Position numbers and translations under genes: made by a program. 12,511 bases of DNA, taken from contig CAJXJM010000031.1 of NCBI GenBank assembly GCA_913054205.1, forward strand, positions 1-12,511. The letters run 5' to 3'. The DNA is from an uncultured Rhodospirillaceae bacterium. Lineage in GTDB: Bacteria; Pseudomonadota; Alphaproteobacteria; Rhodospirillales; UBA2165. Shown here piece after piece: positions 2,884-12,511 of this stretch (positions within the stretch are counted from its first letter, which is position 1; the number at the start of each line of letters is the position of its first letter). The notes under the pieces were generated by a model, which searched no databases, was not told where the DNA came from, and saw only the letters and a list, made by a program, of their open reading frames with translations.

Positions 2884-3849
2884 GTGAAACTTGTCACCAT
2901 TGATTCTCTACCAAATCCGCATGTCGGCGTTTTGGTTGATGCCGATTCTGTTCTTGATCTTGCTGCCTTAAAAGCCGTTCTACCTCTTGCCAATCTGGTC
3001 CCCAATTCAATGCGGGAAGTATTGGAAGCTGGTGAAGCTGGGCTTGATGCCGTGGCGCATTGCCTCGCCCAAGTCGACAGCATGGCCGCAGATGAGAAAA
3101 CGATATTGTCAGAGGCTGGCATTTTGAGCGCATTGGATGAAGTTCCGCTATTAGCGCCTGTGCCCAATCCGAAGCTTATCCTGTCGGTTGGTCTAAATTA
3201 CTGGAAACATCTGGAAGAAATGGCAGGTACGCCGACGCCAAAACATCCTGCTGCCTTTATCAAAACCAGAGATTCACTTTCCGGTTCCGGAAGTCCGATC
3301 GTGGTGCCATCACAATGTCCAGATATGATTGATTACGAGGGCGAGCTTTGCTTCGTCTTCGGTCGCCAATGTCATAATGTAACTGCCGAGGAAGCGATGG
3401 ATTACGTCGTTGGCTATACCATCGCCAATGATGTATCGGCGCTGAATTGGGTTGGAGAGGTGTTTTCTGCGGACGGAACATTCCCCGCCATTCATTCTTG
3501 GGAGCGCAATATCAACGGCAAGCAATTACCTGGATTTACACCCTGTGGTCCGGTTCTTGTGACTAAAGACGAAATTGATGATCCAAATAAATTGCAAATG
3601 ACCACGACTTTGAATGGCGAGGTGATGCAGTCCACCAGCACGGATGATATGATTTTCCAACTCCCGGAACTCATTTCTTATTTTTCGCAGTGGTATCAGT
3701 TTCATCCCGGTGACATCGTGACGACGGGCACGCCGGCAGGCGTAGGGTTTGGCCGCGATCCAAAGGTGTTCATGAAACCGGGTGATGTGGTGGAGGTTGA
3801 AGTTGAGGGAATCGGAAAACTCTCTAACACCATCGTAGAAACAAATTAA
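2884..3849 (+). CDS. Fumarylacetoacetate hydrolase (FAH) family protein
   Basis: This 321-residue enzyme has an N-terminal cap of about 90 residues and the FAH catalytic domain (about 95-318). FAH-family proteins hydrolyse or decarboxylate C-C bonds of oxo-acids, or hydrate them, using Mg2+ or Mn2+. Metal-ligand motif DYEGEL is at 150-155 (Glu152, Glu154), with Asp183 in ANDVSA, and the family hallmark TTGTPAGVGFG is at 280-290. Most relatives continue ANDVSARDLQ, whereas this one reads ANDVSALNW, so the usual Arg-Asp is missing, and the segment 191-213 differs from the common GKSFD type. The start is a GTG with GGAGG at 2871-2875, 8 bases upstream and inside the end of yaaA. The exact reaction is unknown; a link with the upstream UbiD/AhpD genes is inference. 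Confidence 0.88.
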   Translation: MKLVTIDSLPNPHVGVLVDADSVLDLAALKAVLPLANLVPNSMREVLEAGEAGLDAVAHCLAQVDSMAADEKTILSEAGILSALDEVPLLAPVPNPKLILSVGLNYWKHLEEMAGTPTPKHPAAFIKTRDSLSGSGSPIVVPSQCPDMIDYEGELCFVFGRQCHNVTAEEAMDYVVGYTIANDVSALNWVGEVFSADGTFPAIHSWERNINGKQLPGFTPCGPVLVTKDEIDDPNKLQMTTTLNGEVMQSTSTDDMIFQLPELISYFSQWYQFHPGDIVTTGTPAGVGFGRDPKVFMKPGDVVEVEVEGIGKLSNTIVETN

Positions 3850-6228: not shown

Positions 6229-7035
6229 GTGCCTACCCTCAATTGCGACGGTGTAACCGTCAATTTTCACGATGTTGGTTCCGGTGAGCCGATTGTTCTC
6301 ATTCATTGCTCCTCTAGTTCTCATCGCCAGTGGCGTGGTCTATGGGAGCTTCTTCAAGATGACTATCGTGTCGTTGCAGTCGATATGCTGGGTTGGGGCG
6401 GTACGGATGCCTGGACAAACACAGAAGGTTTTTTGCTGGATGATGAAATTGCCCTCCTGAACGCAATTACCAAAGACATAGATAGTGAGTTTCACCTGGT
6501 CGGTCACTCCTATGGGGGAACCATAGCCAATCATTTGGCGATGACGTCGCCAGAAAAAATCAAATCTCTGACTTTAATCGAGCCGATGCTTGGTTGGTTT
6601 CTTGATCCGGAAACCGAAAGTGCCGCCTATAACGAAATTCGAAATGTGGCTGAATTTTTCTGGGATTGTGTAGCTGCTGGAAAATCTGAAGAAGGTATTC
6701 AACACTATTTTGATTACTGGAATGGCCCGGGCGCTTGGGAGAGTCTTGATGAAAATCTGGTGGCCTATGTTTTGACAGGGGCGCAGAAAAATGTTCACGA
6801 ATTTGAAGTCATTTTTGGTGGTGGTGAGGGCTTAGCGTTACCCGAAACCTTCAATAAACCGACTTTGTTGGTGGGCGGAAAAAAATCAAAAAAGCCAACG
6901 CTTCGAGTGCTCGAAATTTTAGAAAACCGCTTTCCTGATGTGCGAAAACGGTTAATTGACGGCGCTGGCCATATGTCACCGATCACGCATAGCGATCAAA
7001 TCAACAAGGTTATTCAGAAATTTATTGTCGGCTAG
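6229..7035 (+). CDS. Alpha/beta hydrolase
   Basis: This 268-residue cytosolic alpha/beta-fold hydrolase has its nucleophile elbow GHSYGG at 92-97 (Ser94) and His248 in GAGHMSP. The oxyanion segment reads HCSSSSHRQW (26-35) instead of the common HGxxG. No Asp is present after strand 7 (LLVGGKKSKKP), the usual acid position; Glu118 after strand 6 (LIEPML) is the likely replacement, an arrangement I recall from relatives with the HxSxSSxRQW pattern. The start is GTG, set by AGGAG at 6218-6222 with 6-base spacing. It is co-transcribed with the hydroxyacid dehydrogenase, which suggests consecutive steps on an ester, thioester or lactone of a hydroxy acid (inference). Its TAG shares bases with the TAG of the convergent gpt. 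Confidence 0.88.
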   Translation: MPTLNCDGVTVNFHDVGSGEPIVLIHCSSSSHRQWRGLWELLQDDYRVVAVDMLGWGGTDAWTNTEGFLLDDEIALLNAITKDIDSEFHLVGHSYGGTIANHLAMTSPEKIKSLTLIEPMLGWFLDPETESAAYNEIRNVAEFFWDCVAAGKSEEGIQHYFDYWNGPGAWESLDENLVAYVLTGAQKNVHEFEVIFGGGEGLALPETFNKPTLLVGGKKSKKPTLRVLEILENRFPDVRKRLIDGAGHMSPITHSDQINKVIQKFIVG

Positions 7036-7532
7036 TCTTTGCCAGTAGAGGTGTAGAGCGGGGCGGAATATTGCACATCTGTATCCCACGGAAAGAATAC
7101 CCAATAGTTTTGTGGCACTTCATGGACAAATGTGTCGACGGTTGGTCGGCCCATTTCTTTGGCATAGACCGTGGCGACATGACAATTAGGCAGCAACTTC
7201 CGAGCTGCTTTTACGGTCGTGCCGGTATCAACAAGATCATCAATCATCAGCCAGCCTTCGCCTTTTTCATCGACGGCTTTTTCGGGGATTTTGATCATAT
7301 TCACCTCCCCCATGTCTTTTTCGTCATAGGTGGCAATGCAAATTGTATCGATGTTTCGGATATCCATTTCGCGGGCGATAATCGCAGCCGGGATGAGCCC
7401 CCCTCGAGTAACGGCGATAATGCCTTTCCATTCACCCGTGCCAATCAATTGTCTCGCCAGAAGTTTGGTGTCCCGGTGCACTTCAGCCCAGGTAACCACA
7501 TAATCGACAGTTTCTTCTGGTGAATCGCTCAT
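7032..7532 (-). CDS. gpt: Xanthine-guanine phosphoribosyltransferase (XGPRT)
   Basis: This 166-residue enzyme aligns along its length with E. coli Gpt (152 residues) from memory: YVVTWAEVHRDTKLLARQL, WKGIIAVTRGGLIPA (35-49), NIDTICIATYD, the PRPP-binding loop MIDDLVDTGTT (96-106), and NYWVFFPWD (142-150). It salvages xanthine and guanine to XMP and GMP using PRPP. ATG 7532 was chosen because it matches the family start (MSDSP...DYVVTW); in-frame ATG 7553 and TTG 7577 lack better ribosome sites. A G-run lies 8-12 bases before 7532, a weak Shine-Dalgarno. It is divergent from the transglutaminase-like gene, and its stop (CTA on the + strand, 7032-7034) overlaps the hydrolase stop at 7033-7035. 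Confidence 0.93.
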   Translation of the reverse strand: MSDSPEETVDYVVTWAEVHRDTKLLARQLIGTGEWKGIIAVTRGGLIPAAIIAREMDIRNIDTICIATYDEKDMGEVNMIKIPEKAVDEKGEGWLMIDDLVDTGTTVKAARKLLPNCHVATVYAKEMGRPTVDTFVHEVPQNYWVFFPWDTDVQYSAPLYTSTGKD

Positions 7533-7613
7533 CGTTTTTTTTCGCCCCCGCATGGAAGATATTGGTTCTAAAGCCAAAAATATAGTGCGGCGATATTACC
7601 ATTGGATTGTGTC

Positions 7614-8345
7614 ATGGCAAGGCCCGGAGTAAGCTCAATTAAAGCACCATCCGAACAACAAATATACGAGCATCATATGTCTTTTGAGGAATTTCTGAAA
7701 CCTGGGTCTTTTGTTGATAGTGATCATCCGCTCGTTATTGAGTATGCCGATCAACACATTGGTTCTGCCAAGTCTGATATCGATATTGCGCTTAACTTCT
7801 ATTACGCAATCAGAGACGGTATTCGATATAATCCTTATATGAAGGTGAGGAGCGAAACCGCCTATCGCGCCAGCGATGCCATAAAATCCGGCGAAGGATG
7901 GTGTGTGCCAAAAGCTGCCTTGATGACGGCCTGTCTTCGGCTGAAAGGCATTCCGGCGCGGCCAGGCTACGCTGATGTGAGGAATCATCTGGCGTCACAA
8001 CGGTTGCTGGATTTATTGGGTACCGATTTGTTTCCGTGGCACTCTTATTGTGAGGCCTACCTTGACGGTAAATGGGTTAAGTCGACACCGTCGTTTAATT
8101 TATCGCTGTGTGAGAAGTTTGATCTGAAACCGTTGGAGTTTGATGGCAGAAATGAATCGCTGTTTCATGAATTCGATCAGGCGGGAAATAAACACATGGA
8201 TTACGTACAGGACAGAGGCTATTACGTCGATGTGCCGATGGATGAGATTATTGAAACTTTTTCCGCCACCTATGGCGAGCACTACATGAATAACGTCGGC
8301 GGTGATTTATATGCCGAAGCCGAAGCCGAGCGTGCGAACACTTAA
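7614..8345 (+). CDS. Transglutaminase-like (papain-like fold) protein
   Basis: This 243-residue protein carries a transglutaminase-core domain at about 55-165. Cys97 in GEGWCVPKAALMTACL and His143 in FPWHSYCEAYLDGKW are in place as nucleophile and base. The third position, usually Asp in a W..LDPT motif, here reads WVKSTPSFN, so Thr158 replaces it. I recall the KxTPxFN form in bacterial relatives, so it is probably a family trait. The protein has no signal peptide and so is probably cytosolic. Substrate unknown. Start is uncertain: ATG 7614 (used here), ATG 7677 (protein then starts MSFEEFLKPGSFVDSDHP, which may fit relatives better) and TTG 7602 are all in frame, none with a strong ribosome site. 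It is divergent from gpt and convergent with the MarR gene, stops overlapping in TTAA. Confidence 0.82.
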   Translation: MARPGVSSIKAPSEQQIYEHHMSFEEFLKPGSFVDSDHPLVIEYADQHIGSAKSDIDIALNFYYAIRDGIRYNPYMKVRSETAYRASDAIKSGEGWCVPKAALMTACLRLKGIPARPGYADVRNHLASQRLLDLLGTDLFPWHSYCEAYLDGKWVKSTPSFNLSLCEKFDLKPLEFDGRNESLFHEFDQAGNKHMDYVQDRGYYVDVPMDEIIETFSATYGEHYMNNVGGDLYAEAEAERANT

Positions 8346-8794
8346 GCTTCAGAATTAGCCAATATTTTAAGCGCCTCAATAAAAGGCGCATGAAGGTGTT
8401 CTGGGAGTCTCGTCAATAGATTTCTATTTACTTCAATAATACCAGGTAATGCCTCTTCAATCTCCCGCTCACCTTGTTCGGTGAGATATAGTTTTGATGC
8501 ACGCTCGTCCTGTTGATCCGGCATTTTTCTGAGTAATCCGCGTTTCTCAAGGCGCTCGGCAATTTCGCTGATGGTAGAGCGATCCATGGCGATGAGTTCT
8601 GTCAGGTCAACCTGGCGCAATCCAGGTTGCTGATAAATGGCGAGCAAAAGGGAAAACTGGCGCGGCCGCAATTCCCGGCCAACCTCTTCAGCATATGCGG
8701 CAACGGCAATTTGTTGGGCACGTCTGAGCAGATGGCCAGCATGATCCATCAGGTCAAAATCATCGATAGATTGGCTAAATTTTTTGCTCACCAT
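8342..8794 (-). CDS. MarR-family transcriptional regulator
   Basis: This 150-residue protein is a typical MarR regulator. A dimerisation helix is at about 12-40, then LRPRQFSLLLAIYQQPG (42-58), the HTH RQVDLTELIAMDRSTISEIA (60-79), RLEKRGLLRK (81-90), the wing DERASKLYLTEQG (96-108), and C-terminal helices. Such proteins bind short palindromes as dimers and release them on ligand binding or oxidation; there is no Cys here, so thiol oxidation sensing is unlikely. The ATG at 8794 lacks a clear Shine-Dalgarno. The upstream region holds an inverted repeat (8827-8859) that could be its own operator. It is divergent from selD, 246 bases away, so joint control of selD is possible but not shown. Confidence 0.88.
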   Translation of the reverse strand: MVSKKFSQSIDDFDLMDHAGHLLRRAQQIAVAAYAEEVGRELRPRQFSLLLAIYQQPGLRQVDLTELIAMDRSTISEIAERLEKRGLLRKMPDQQDERASKLYLTEQGEREIEEALPGIIEVNRNLLTRLPEHLHAPFIEALKILANSEA

Positions 8795-8826
8795 GTCGGT
8801 TGCTCAAATAAAAGTTCAATGTAGTT

Positions 8827-8859
8827 GCGATAATGTCCCAATTGGTCCGCAGTTATCGC
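8827..8859. repeat. Inverted repeat GCGATAA-N19-TTATCGC with nested palindrome
   Basis: Perfect 7-base arms GCGATAA (8827-8833) and TTATCGC (8853-8859) flank a 19-base spacer that contains the 8-base palindrome CCAATTGG (8838-8845), nearly concentric with the arms. It lies 33 bases upstream of the MarR start, on the side of its expected promoter. It could be a regulator operator or an RNA stem-loop in a leader. Confidence 0.45.
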
Positions 8860-8969
8860 CGGTTCCTCTGAAATTGTCACGACCTTTGCAACACACCATT
8901 TTTGATATGATTGCTTTTCAAGAGGATATTGGTGCATACCGATAGGTGCCTCGTTTCTCCACTTTGTGA

Positions 8970-8999
8970 TTGGTTGCAATCTTTTTGACCAGCTATAAG
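8970..8999 (+). promoter_or_regulatory. Possible sigma70-type promoter of selD
   Basis: TTGGTT (8970-8975) and TATAAG (8994-8999) are separated by 18 bases. Transcription would begin near 9006, giving a leader of about 35 bases before the selD ATG. The -35 box is weak, so this is a candidate only. Confidence 0.25.
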
Positions 9000-9026
9000 A
9001 TGGGGCAAATAGAAATGAATAACCAA

Positions 9027-9031
9027 AAGGA
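9027..9031 (+). promoter_or_regulatory. Shine-Dalgarno deciding the selD start at 9041
   Basis: AAGGA within AAAAGGAAC lies 9 bases before ATG 9041. The alternative GTG at 9113 has no such site in front of it. This supports translation starting upstream of the in-frame TGA at 9089-9091. Confidence 0.75.
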
Positions 9032-9040
9032 ACTCTGGAC

Positions 9041-10087
9041 ATGGATGGTGATCAACTTCGCTTAACCCAGCTGTCTCACGGCGGCGGTTGAGGTTGTAAA
9101 GTAGCACCGTCGGTGCTTGAGGACATACTTTCTAAATTACCGCCATCGGCCAAGTTTCCAAACTTGTTGGTTGGCGTTGAAACGGGTGACGACTCAGCTG
9201 TCTATAAGATCAATGATGATCAGGCTATTGTCGCAACGACCGATTTTTTTATGCCAATTGTTGATGATCCCTATGACTTTGGTCGGATATCAGCAACCAA
9301 TGCACTGTCCGATGTTTATGCCATTGGCGGCAAGCCGGTTATGGCTTTAGCAATTGCCGGTTTTCCAGTGAATGTGATGACTGATGAGGATATTGCGCAA
9401 GTGCTGGCTGGCGGAGCCGCGGTTTGTGAGGCGGCCGGCGTGCCGGTGGCAGGCGGCCACACAATTGATGCCAAAGAGCCAATCTATGGCTTGGCTGTTA
9501 TCGGCATGATCCATCCCGATAAAATCAAACGCAATTCTGATGGCCGGGCGGGAGATGTGCTCATTCTTGGAAAAGGTTTGGGTGTTGGTATTTTGGGCGC
9601 CGCTATGAACAAGGACGAGCTCGACCCGCGCGGCTACGAAGTGATGATCGAAAGCACGACCAAGCTCAACGCCGTTGGAGCCGATCTAGCTGCGCTATCG
9701 GAAGTCAACGCGCTTACCGATGTCACGGGTTTCGGTCTTTGCGGACATATGTATGAGTTTTGTAAAGGTGCCGGACTTTCAGCAACCATCGAGTGGACCA
9801 AATTGCCGATTTTGGATACTGTTCTCGATTACGCCCAGAAAGGTTACAACACAGGTGCAGCCAATCGAAACTGGGACAGCTTTGCCGATAAAATCCATGT
9901 GCCTGATGATATGGAGCAATGGCAGAAAAACCTGCTGATGGATCCACAGACCAGTGGTGGTCTTTTGGTTTCTTGTCCACCCGACGCAGCGGAGAAAGTT
10001 CTAAAGACCTTCCGCGCCGCCGGCTTTGATCATGCCTGCATCATTGGCGAGCTCAGTGACGGCGACGCGAAGGTGACGGTGACCTAG
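9041..10087 (+). CDS. selD: Selenophosphate synthetase, itself a selenoprotein (Sec17 encoded by in-frame TGA 9089-9091)
   Basis: The enzyme makes selenophosphate from selenide and ATP, the selenium donor for selenocysteine and for 2-selenouridine in tRNA. From ATG 9041 the frame reads MDGDQLRLTQLSHGGG, TGA, GCKVAPSVLEDIL, then the known SelD body, 348 residues in all (E. coli 347). The TGA is codon 17 and Lys is residue 20, the same positions as catalytic Cys17 and Lys20 of E. coli SelD, and natural Sec variants at this position are established in other species. Other SelD marks: GVETGDDSAVY (45-55), TTDFFMPIVD (66-75), AGGHTIDA (137-144), TDVTGFGLCGH and DPQTSGG. A stop-limited reading would start at GTG 9113 (residue 25) and lack the whole active-site loop. 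A SECIS-like hairpin follows the UGA. Expression should depend on SelB and selenium supply. The secreted-protein gene follows 78 bases downstream. Confidence 0.95.
9103..9117 (+). promoter_or_regulatory. Candidate bacterial SECIS hairpin downstream of the selD UGA
   Basis: AGCACC (9103-9108) pairs fully with GGTGCT (9112-9117) around a GTC loop (9109-9111). The loop begins 17 bases after the end of the UGA (9091), within the roughly 16-37 base spacing described for bacterial SECIS elements, and the loop starts with G, as their consensus asks. AAAGT (9098-9102) could also pair with ACTTT (9127-9131) across an unequal internal loop. The element lies inside the coding sequence. Confidence 0.7.
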
Positions 10088-10165
10088 CTTCAGCTATTTA
10101 AATCGACGGGTTTCCTATCCATGATCGTTGTCTTGCTGATACCTTTTCGTATTAGGAGACAACAT

Positions 10166-10696
10166 ATGTGTAAAATATTGGCAGCTGCTTCATTTTTAGC
10201 GTTGGCGTTTTTCTCGGGGAACGCTGTTGCGGAACCACCGCAATTGCAAACCTCTGCACCGGTTATTTTTCTGGCCGACAATTTGGATGAACAGGATAAG
10301 CTCGGGTGGTGCATCGATACGCAAGGCCGAGGTTTTTCAGAAAGACTGCATGCGCACTCGTGCAAACCTCAAGGCGGAGATGTGCAATTTCTATATGATG
10401 CTGGCTCGAGCCAAATCAAATCCGCTACCTTCTCGGGGAAATGTGCCACTCTGGATGTGGCGCCAAAGGCCGGCATAAAATTTGGACTGCTGGATTGTAA
10501 AACAGATGCCGCAAATCAGAAATTTACCTTCAACAGTTCGTCTGGTGAATTTCATCCTGCCAGCGATAATAATCTCTGTCTTGTCGTTGGCTCCTCCAGC
10601 CGATCAGCAGGGCCGTTTATGTCTCGCAATCTAGAGCTGGCGTCCTGCGCCTCAACTGCTCCGAAGTTCAAAAAATGGGTTTATAGAACAAAATAG
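10166..10696 (+). CDS. Small secreted protein with three Cys-paired, beta-trefoil-like repeats
   Basis: This 176-residue protein has a Sec signal peptide (KILAAASFLALAFF core, likely cut after AVA at residue 22), so it is periplasmic or secreted. The mature part shows three units with the same plan: Cys49-Cys66 followed by VQFLYD; Cys93-Cys111 followed by NQKFTF; Cys138-Cys161 followed by FKKWVY. This matches ricin-B-like beta-trefoil lectins, where each unit has a disulfide and a QxW-type motif, but the motifs here are degenerate and sugar binding is not assured. ATG 10166 has AGGAG at 10154-10158, 7 bases before it; the in-frame ATG at 10121 has none. It lies 78 bases after selD on the same strand and might be read through from it. 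No named family is recognised. Confidence 0.75.
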   Translation: MCKILAAASFLALAFFSGNAVAEPPQLQTSAPVIFLADNLDEQDKLGWCIDTQGRGFSERLHAHSCKPQGGDVQFLYDAGSSQIKSATFSGKCATLDVAPKAGIKFGLLDCKTDAANQKFTFNSSSGEFHPASDNNLCLVVGSSSRSAGPFMSRNLELASCASTAPKFKKWVYRTK

Positions 10697-10707
10697 ACCC
10701 AGAGCAT

Positions 10708-11127
10708 TTACTTTTCCGCCAAAGCTTTCAAAACTGCGTCGAACGGCAGCAAGATCGCACCGTGGCGGGGTTTGGCATCTTTGGCGGGGGCGAGGGCTTT
10801 GAGGGCGGCCCAATCGCCATCGGGTGGAGATGCATCTGTAACTAGCATCGCCTCAACCTGATCACGTACAGATTTCAAATTCTGTTTTGACTTGCCGATA
10901 ACGGCATCTGCCATTATTGATGCGGAGGCCTGGCCAAGCGCACAGGCTTTAATTTTCTGGCTGTAGCCGGTGACAGTATTACCTTCAATCGTAATCGCGA
11001 TTTCAATGGAGCTGCCGCAGAGCGGGCTGCGCAACGATACCGTCGCGTCTGGGTTCTCAAGCGCCTCCAGGCCACCAATGTTGGCAGCCAGCCTGAGAAC
11101 GTCTTTGTTATATATGTCGTCGATCAT
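10708..11127 (-). CDS. NifU/IscU-like iron-sulfur cluster scaffold protein
   Basis: This 139-residue protein belongs to the IscU/SufU fold. Two of the three usual cluster-ligand Cys are present: Cys37 in SPLCGSS and Cys62 in KACALGQASASIM. The Asp that normally follows the first motif (CGD) is Ser here, and the third Cys is missing: the C-terminal motif reads KPRHGAILLPFDAVLKAL (119-136), leaving His122 at about that point. I recall the same SPLCGS, ACALGQAS and ARH patterns in other alphaproteobacterial scaffolds, so this is a lineage variant rather than decay. Its role is probably cluster assembly or sulfur transfer, not proven. ATG 11127 starts the protein like relatives (MIDDIYNKDVLRLAANI); a GTG at 11169 would extend it. 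It is divergent from queA by 63 bases. Confidence 0.85.
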   Translation of the reverse strand: MIDDIYNKDVLRLAANIGGLEALENPDATVSLRSPLCGSSIEIAITIEGNTVTGYSQKIKACALGQASASIMADAVIGKSKQNLKSVRDQVEAMLVTDASPPDGDWAALKALAPAKDAKPRHGAILLPFDAVLKALAEK

Positions 11128-11190
11128 GGTGATTGGAATATAGACTTCGAGTTGTTTGCCCGCCAGCACCTAATCGGTTAAAGCAAGTTT

Positions 11191-12511
<1,321 letters not shown>

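Follow-up and report, generated by a model that had tools for sequence, protein, structure and literature searches.

An in-frame TGA codon and an invariant SECIS-like hairpin in the selD gene of an uncultured Rhodospirillaceae bacterium

The window, i.e., the whole stretch of 12,511 nucleotides that was analysed, raises the question whether its selD gene encodes a protein of 324 residues or a longer selenoprotein that is read through an in-frame TGA codon. Mechanical ORF calling on the window returned only the frame from GTG 9113 to position 10087 (forward strand, 324 aa). This GTG is internal to selD, corresponds to Val25, and lies within the hairpin described below. The full frame extends from ATG 9041 to the stop codon TAG at 10085-10087 (selD, 9041-10087, forward strand, 348 codons plus stop) and reads MDGDQLRLTQLSHGGG-TGA-GCKVAPSVL..., with one in-frame TGA. 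A putative ribosome site, AAGGA, is found at 9027-9031 on the forward strand, with a spacer of 9 nt to the ATG. The sequence-only reading had proposed this start together with its AAGGA site, and had predicted that an ORF-only annotation would report 324 residues without the active-site loop; the coordinates of the start hold, and the prediction is what ORF calling returned.

The TGA codon and its conservation

The 348-aa read-through product scored 417.8 bits with the selD profile TIGR00476 (cut-off 125) and 509.9 bits with NF002098 (cut-off 299), and thus has the profile match of a SelD. In the alignment with the solved SelD 3u0o (E 2.5e-97) the TGA, which is codon 17 (9089-9091, forward strand) and the proposed selenocysteine (Sec) codon, fell on Cys17 without a gap, and AAA fell on Lys20. 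Residues 17 (Cys or Sec, catalytic) and 20 (Lys) are what we take to be the active-site positions of SelD. The alignment is therefore in agreement with the earlier claim that the frame is interrupted solely by the TGA at catalytic residue 17, with Lys at 20. TGA does not generally act as a sense codon here, because it ends two of the 15 ORFs of the window that were checked and Trp is spelled TGG. ORF callers strip the active site from this selD, and the same is expected in related genomes.

The gene directly downstream of selD (10121-10696) encodes a small protein in which a ricin-type lectin domain was recognized (42.8 bits, cut-off 29), and a homologue of it is located near selD in genome G002. 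An alpha/beta hydrolase, a phosphoribosyltransferase, a transglutaminase-like protein, a NifU_N-like protein and queA are also encoded in the neighbourhood (6229-12509), which is partly kept in genomes of the same genus, e.g., G001, G002, G005 and G007.

Orthologues were searched in 60 genomes, i.e., the own genome (G000) and 59 relatives, 24 of the 60 belonging to the own family. The search yielded 23 single-domain orthologues, all of which were read at the N-terminus. Alignment with Sec-type and Cys-type SelD had been suggested as a check of the sequence-only reading, and it showed TGA at residue 17 in 18 of the 23 orthologues and Cys in the remaining five (G014, G026, G035, G040, G042), i.e., homologues have Cys where the gene has its in-frame TGA, a pattern that is used to recognize selenoproteins. 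Residues 7-16 and 18-26, which flank the TGA, were conserved across the TGA-type genes. Within the own family an orthologue was found in 19 of the 24 genomes, with TGA in 18 and Cys in one (G014), while all four orthologues from outside the family had Cys. No SelD orthologue was found in five own-family genomes (G003, G008, G009, G019, G021), including G009 and G019, which are 100% and 90% complete, respectively.

A maximum-likelihood tree was calculated from 25 rows, comprising 17 Sec types, five single-domain Cys types and three distant SelD matches of the Cys type that came from long open frames; L036 was omitted. The Cys-type gene of G014 was nested among the Sec types with support of 80/91. 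This suggests that its sequence went through a change from Sec to Cys, with the placement flagged as unsure and the branch being long. The tree was consistent with either a single or a multiple origin of the Sec types. Three further observations concern individual orthologues. G014 (L030, L064, L084) has a Cys-type SelD, yet it has retained selA and selB over cut-off. In L021 and L022 (G007 and G005) the active-site motif is U-G-A-K and not U-G-C-K, with Ala in place of the second Cys. In L036 (G013) SelD is matched as two overlapping pieces, probably due to a frameshift 3' of the TGA.

The hairpin downstream of the TGA

The TGA is followed, after a spacer of 10 nt, by the invariant 16-base stretch TAGCACCGTCGGTGCT (9102-9117, forward strand), which contains a proposed SECIS hairpin. 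The stem of 6 bp (AGCACC/GGUGCU) is formed by 9103-9108 and 9112-9117, the loop GUC comprises 9109-9111, and the distance from the UGA to the loop is 17 nt. The stretch was present in all 18 TGA-type orthologues and in none of the five Cys-type orthologues. Its conservation was also analysed at the codon level. The 34 full-length TGA-type genes were reduced to 21 distinct ones by removal of 13 that were identical or contained in others; of the 18 TGA-type orthologues, L027 was dropped because the filter required Ser-His in front of the TGA, where this gene has Ala-His (its hairpin is identical), and L036 was dropped for its length, probably again a consequence of the frameshift. Among 64 four-fold codons that encode the same residue in all 21 genes, the third base was fixed in only four, namely those for Ala22, Pro23, Ser24 and Val25, and all four lie within the hairpin. 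The chance of hitting exactly those four among 64 is 1.6e-6, a value that ignores relatedness and serves as a guide only.

The constraints for bacterial SECIS elements (bSECIS), as given in the consulted portion of PMC13188914, are a loop of 3-9 nt, a stem of 4-16 bp, a G in the first two loop positions, a UGA distance of 16-37 nt, and a minimum free energy of at most -7.5 kcal/mol. By these constraints the selD hairpin has a fitting loop (3 nt, G first), stem (6 bp) and distance (17 nt), and the energy varied with the stretch that was folded: it was -13.9 kcal/mol for the first 45 nt and -7.2 kcal/mol, slightly short of the threshold, for the hairpin alone. Across the 21 genes the first 45 nt yielded values from -9.5 to -17.6, and the complete hairpin was present in the minimum-energy fold of only 17. 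Folding of the hairpin from the window's selD by itself was unremarkable (z -1.44; 20 of 200 shuffles were equally good), and, thus, the argument for the hairpin rests on conservation. Of 20,000 synonymous versions of VAPSVL drawn at random, 377 formed the complete stem of 6 bp, and therefore a hairpin in a single gene is weak evidence; an invariant hairpin also gives no covariation to test. Rfam searches of the window and three loci gave no match to a SECIS element or a tRNA-Sec. Two weak Rfam matches in L144 were regarded as chance matches.

The GTDB species-genome collection was scanned for a TGA followed by ten arbitrary nucleotides and the hairpin. Matches were found at 26 places, and at 25 of them the TGA was located in a selD frame. 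These 25 belong to metagenome-assembled genomes that are labelled Alphaproteobacteria, Rhodospirillales, Rhodospirillaceae or Proteobacteria, and they are not an independent sample, because several of the records are those of relatives compared above. The remaining match, L166 from a Clostridiales record, did not show a SelD frame and was regarded as a chance hit. A description of the selD hairpin was not found in the consulted parts of the literature on selenocysteine and SelD in Rhodospirillales (PMC8124441, PMC9312934), and it may still be in print. The frozen SECIS-like hairpin is the strongest evidence and the best new element of the analysis; it was absent from the sequence-only reading.

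Selenocysteine machinery, interpretation and alternatives

The own genome is 88.86% complete and is distributed over 510 contigs. In profile searches selA was not found, nor was a tRNA-Sec over cut-off or a selB, for which there were eight matches, all below cut-off. These eight are presumably other GTPases, and five sub-cut-off tRNA-Sec matches were tRNA-Ser, -Cys, -Asn, -Phe and -Trp. Pieces of two of the genes were, however, located at contig ends. The genes upstream of selA on contig C28 (12,831 bases) match those of G006, a genome of the same genus, with 74-75% DNA identity, and the contig ends 73 codons into selA, with the frame open and 49 of 71 residues identical to SelA of G006. The profile search probably missed selA because the contig runs out within the gene. 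On contig C340 (3,492 bases; L221) positions 3421-3459 are identical to the first 39 nt of the tRNA-Sec gene (selC) of the same-genus genome G003, extending past the anticodon, and the remainder of the contig matches DNA near selC in G002. The final 33 nt after the selC piece are unrelated, so that this is either a misassembled contig end or a partial copy of selC. The gaps are best read as contig breaks, with selB the least certain case.

Among the 17 other genomes with a TGA-type SelD, selA was found over cut-off in 14, selB in 12 and tRNA-Sec (at least 73 bits) in 14, and at least one of the three genes was found in 16. The exception was G012 (L028; 85% complete), in which none of the three was found over cut-off. 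ARAGORN reported tRNA-SeC with anticodon tca in all 15 loci given, out of 24 such loci (best matches of at least 65 bits). Near the tRNA-Sec of L110 and L112 a second, partial match of 22 nt is present. An intergenic sequence of about 80 nt (L134:15853-15932; G006 C22:37853-37932) matches many places in the own genome on both strands, i.e., it belongs to a dispersed repeat family.

Further uses of selenium were found as well. SelW (PF10262) was detected in 10 of 25 genomes with 11 matches, seven with an internal TGA and four with Cys. The own genome has a TGA-interrupted SelW gene (C204:4039-4239, minus strand), and the TGA type is present in six other genomes. CTCCGTG is common to these genes, as is a possible hairpin after the TGA (CCCUC-CGUGU-GAGGG in the own genome), the predicted folds of which differ between genomes. 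In our own reading the SelW loop starts with CGU, and the selD loop would have the same start if the C-G pair closing GUC opened. A selenouridine synthase is encoded in the own genome at C32:10937-11851 (356.4 bits, cut-off 219.75). No internal TGA was found among the formate dehydrogenase matches listed for the 25 genomes. The search for sel genes and other selenoprotein genes that had been suggested earlier was thus successful for the contig-end pieces of selA and selC and for a TGA-type SelW, and unsuccessful for selB.

Taken together, the conserved TGA, the hairpin confined to TGA-type genes, the SelW gene, the presence of sel genes in 16 of the 17 other genomes with a TGA-type SelD and the selA and selC pieces support the earlier proposal of Sec at residue 17. 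We are highly confident in the whole explanation, i.e., a Sec17-SelD that is produced via a SelB-bound hairpin at its UGA and feeds its own Sec cycle; within it, we infer the actual insertion of Sec, the binding of SelB to the hairpin, and intact selA, selB and selC genes. SelB carrying Sec-tRNA(Sec) would bind the hairpin at 9103-9117, and Sec would go in at UGA 9089-9091 instead of termination. The enzyme would make selenophosphate, which SelA would use for the formation of Sec-tRNA(Sec), and this would be required for new SelD and for at least one SelW-like protein. Selenophosphate would also feed the tRNA selenouridine synthase. The self-dependence of SelD would hold for any Sec-type SelD.

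Other explanations were weighed against this one. A sequencing or assembly error, with TGT or TGC as the true codon, might be suspected in a fragmented and incomplete genome, but the identical TGA is present in 17 other genomes, together with a hairpin that Cys-type genes are without, and its occurrence in 18 of 19 own-family orthologues rules a sequencing error out; the probability of this rival is practically negligible. Extremely unlikely is also a pseudogene, or a SelD that is made only from GTG 9113. Its product would match the result of ORF calling, but it would be without residue 17 and Lys20 and would start inside the hairpin, and the TGA-type genes have conserved residues before and after the TGA.

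Recodings of TGA to Trp or Cys exist elsewhere, and the five orthologues with Cys imply that Cys insertion would be tolerable, which speaks for decoding as another amino acid, e.g., as Trp through an altered genetic code or as Cys through a suppressor tRNA. However, TGA ends ORFs in the window and Trp is TGG, tRNA-Sec, selA and selB are present in relatives, and the hairpin would be superfluous, so that such a decoding is held to be extremely improbable. Lastly, the Sec system might truly be lost, with selD remaining as a relic or for selenouridine only. The results of the profile searches for selA, selB and tRNA-Sec and the presence of a selenouridine synthase would agree with such a loss, but selA is open through its first 73 codons to the end of C28, a TGA-type SelW is retained, and full SelD could not form without Sec insertion. 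We regard a loss as very unlikely.

Sec insertion at residue 17 is thus retained as the explanation. A speculative extension of it, to which we attach a low probability, is that the selD UGA might be a selenium-sensing switch. Sec-SelD, SelW and selenouridine might then sustain the Sec trait where no Sec-type formate dehydrogenase was seen, and the frozen hairpin might tune a self-dependent response, possibly of the on/off kind, to the supply of selenium.

Comparison with known systems

According to the consulted sections of PMC4561486, selenophosphate synthetase (SPS) is a selenoprotein in many species, and those of PMC2398784 count SelD with the major selenoprotein families found in marine samples. 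These sources bear out the statement of the sequence-only reading that Sec-containing SelD is established in other organisms; Sec-type SelD is abundant in marine metagenomes, and the picture obtained here fits the marine record. For Alphaproteobacteria, fdhA was reported as the only selenoprotein gene in the Sec-decoding members studied (PMC1794560), and a figure legend of PMC8124441 gives SelD as a non-selenoprotein for the bacteria that were analysed from four alphaproteobacterial orders. The present family does not agree with either of these statements on previously examined Alphaproteobacteria, as far as the legend represents the latter source, and it clearly speaks against the published view that SelD of Alphaproteobacteria is not a selenoprotein.

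With the bacterial Sec-SelD/SPS2, as described in the sections of PMC4561486 and PMC2398784 consulted, the gene shares the catalytic Sec codon, a bacterial SECIS directly 3' of it, and Cys forms in relatives; it differs in that the family is alphaproteobacterial and that the hairpin sequence is unchanged in the 18 orthologues compared. The Cys-type Ndh-SelD fusion, in the same part of PMC2398784, has the SelD domain in common with the protein of the window, which is, in contrast, single-domain and of the Sec type. SelD matches with 33-38% identity were also found within open frames of 707-1019 aa in genomes of the same order, and these have the length of the fusions. The hairpin agrees with the bSECIS consensus, as far as it is covered by the consulted portion of PMC13188914, in its 6-bp stem, its 3-nt loop starting with G-U and its distance of 17 nt from the UGA, but here the sequence is fixed, and not the structure alone.

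The frozen selD hairpin and the possible SelW hairpin, which occur in the same genomes and in our reading may have a common CGU tip, offer a compact test of SelB recognition outside of E. coli. The selD hairpin lacks the bulged U of the SECIS element of E. coli fdhF and has, in its place, a U at the stem base. Genes of this kind are already known, and it is well supported that this bacterial lineage is a further case.
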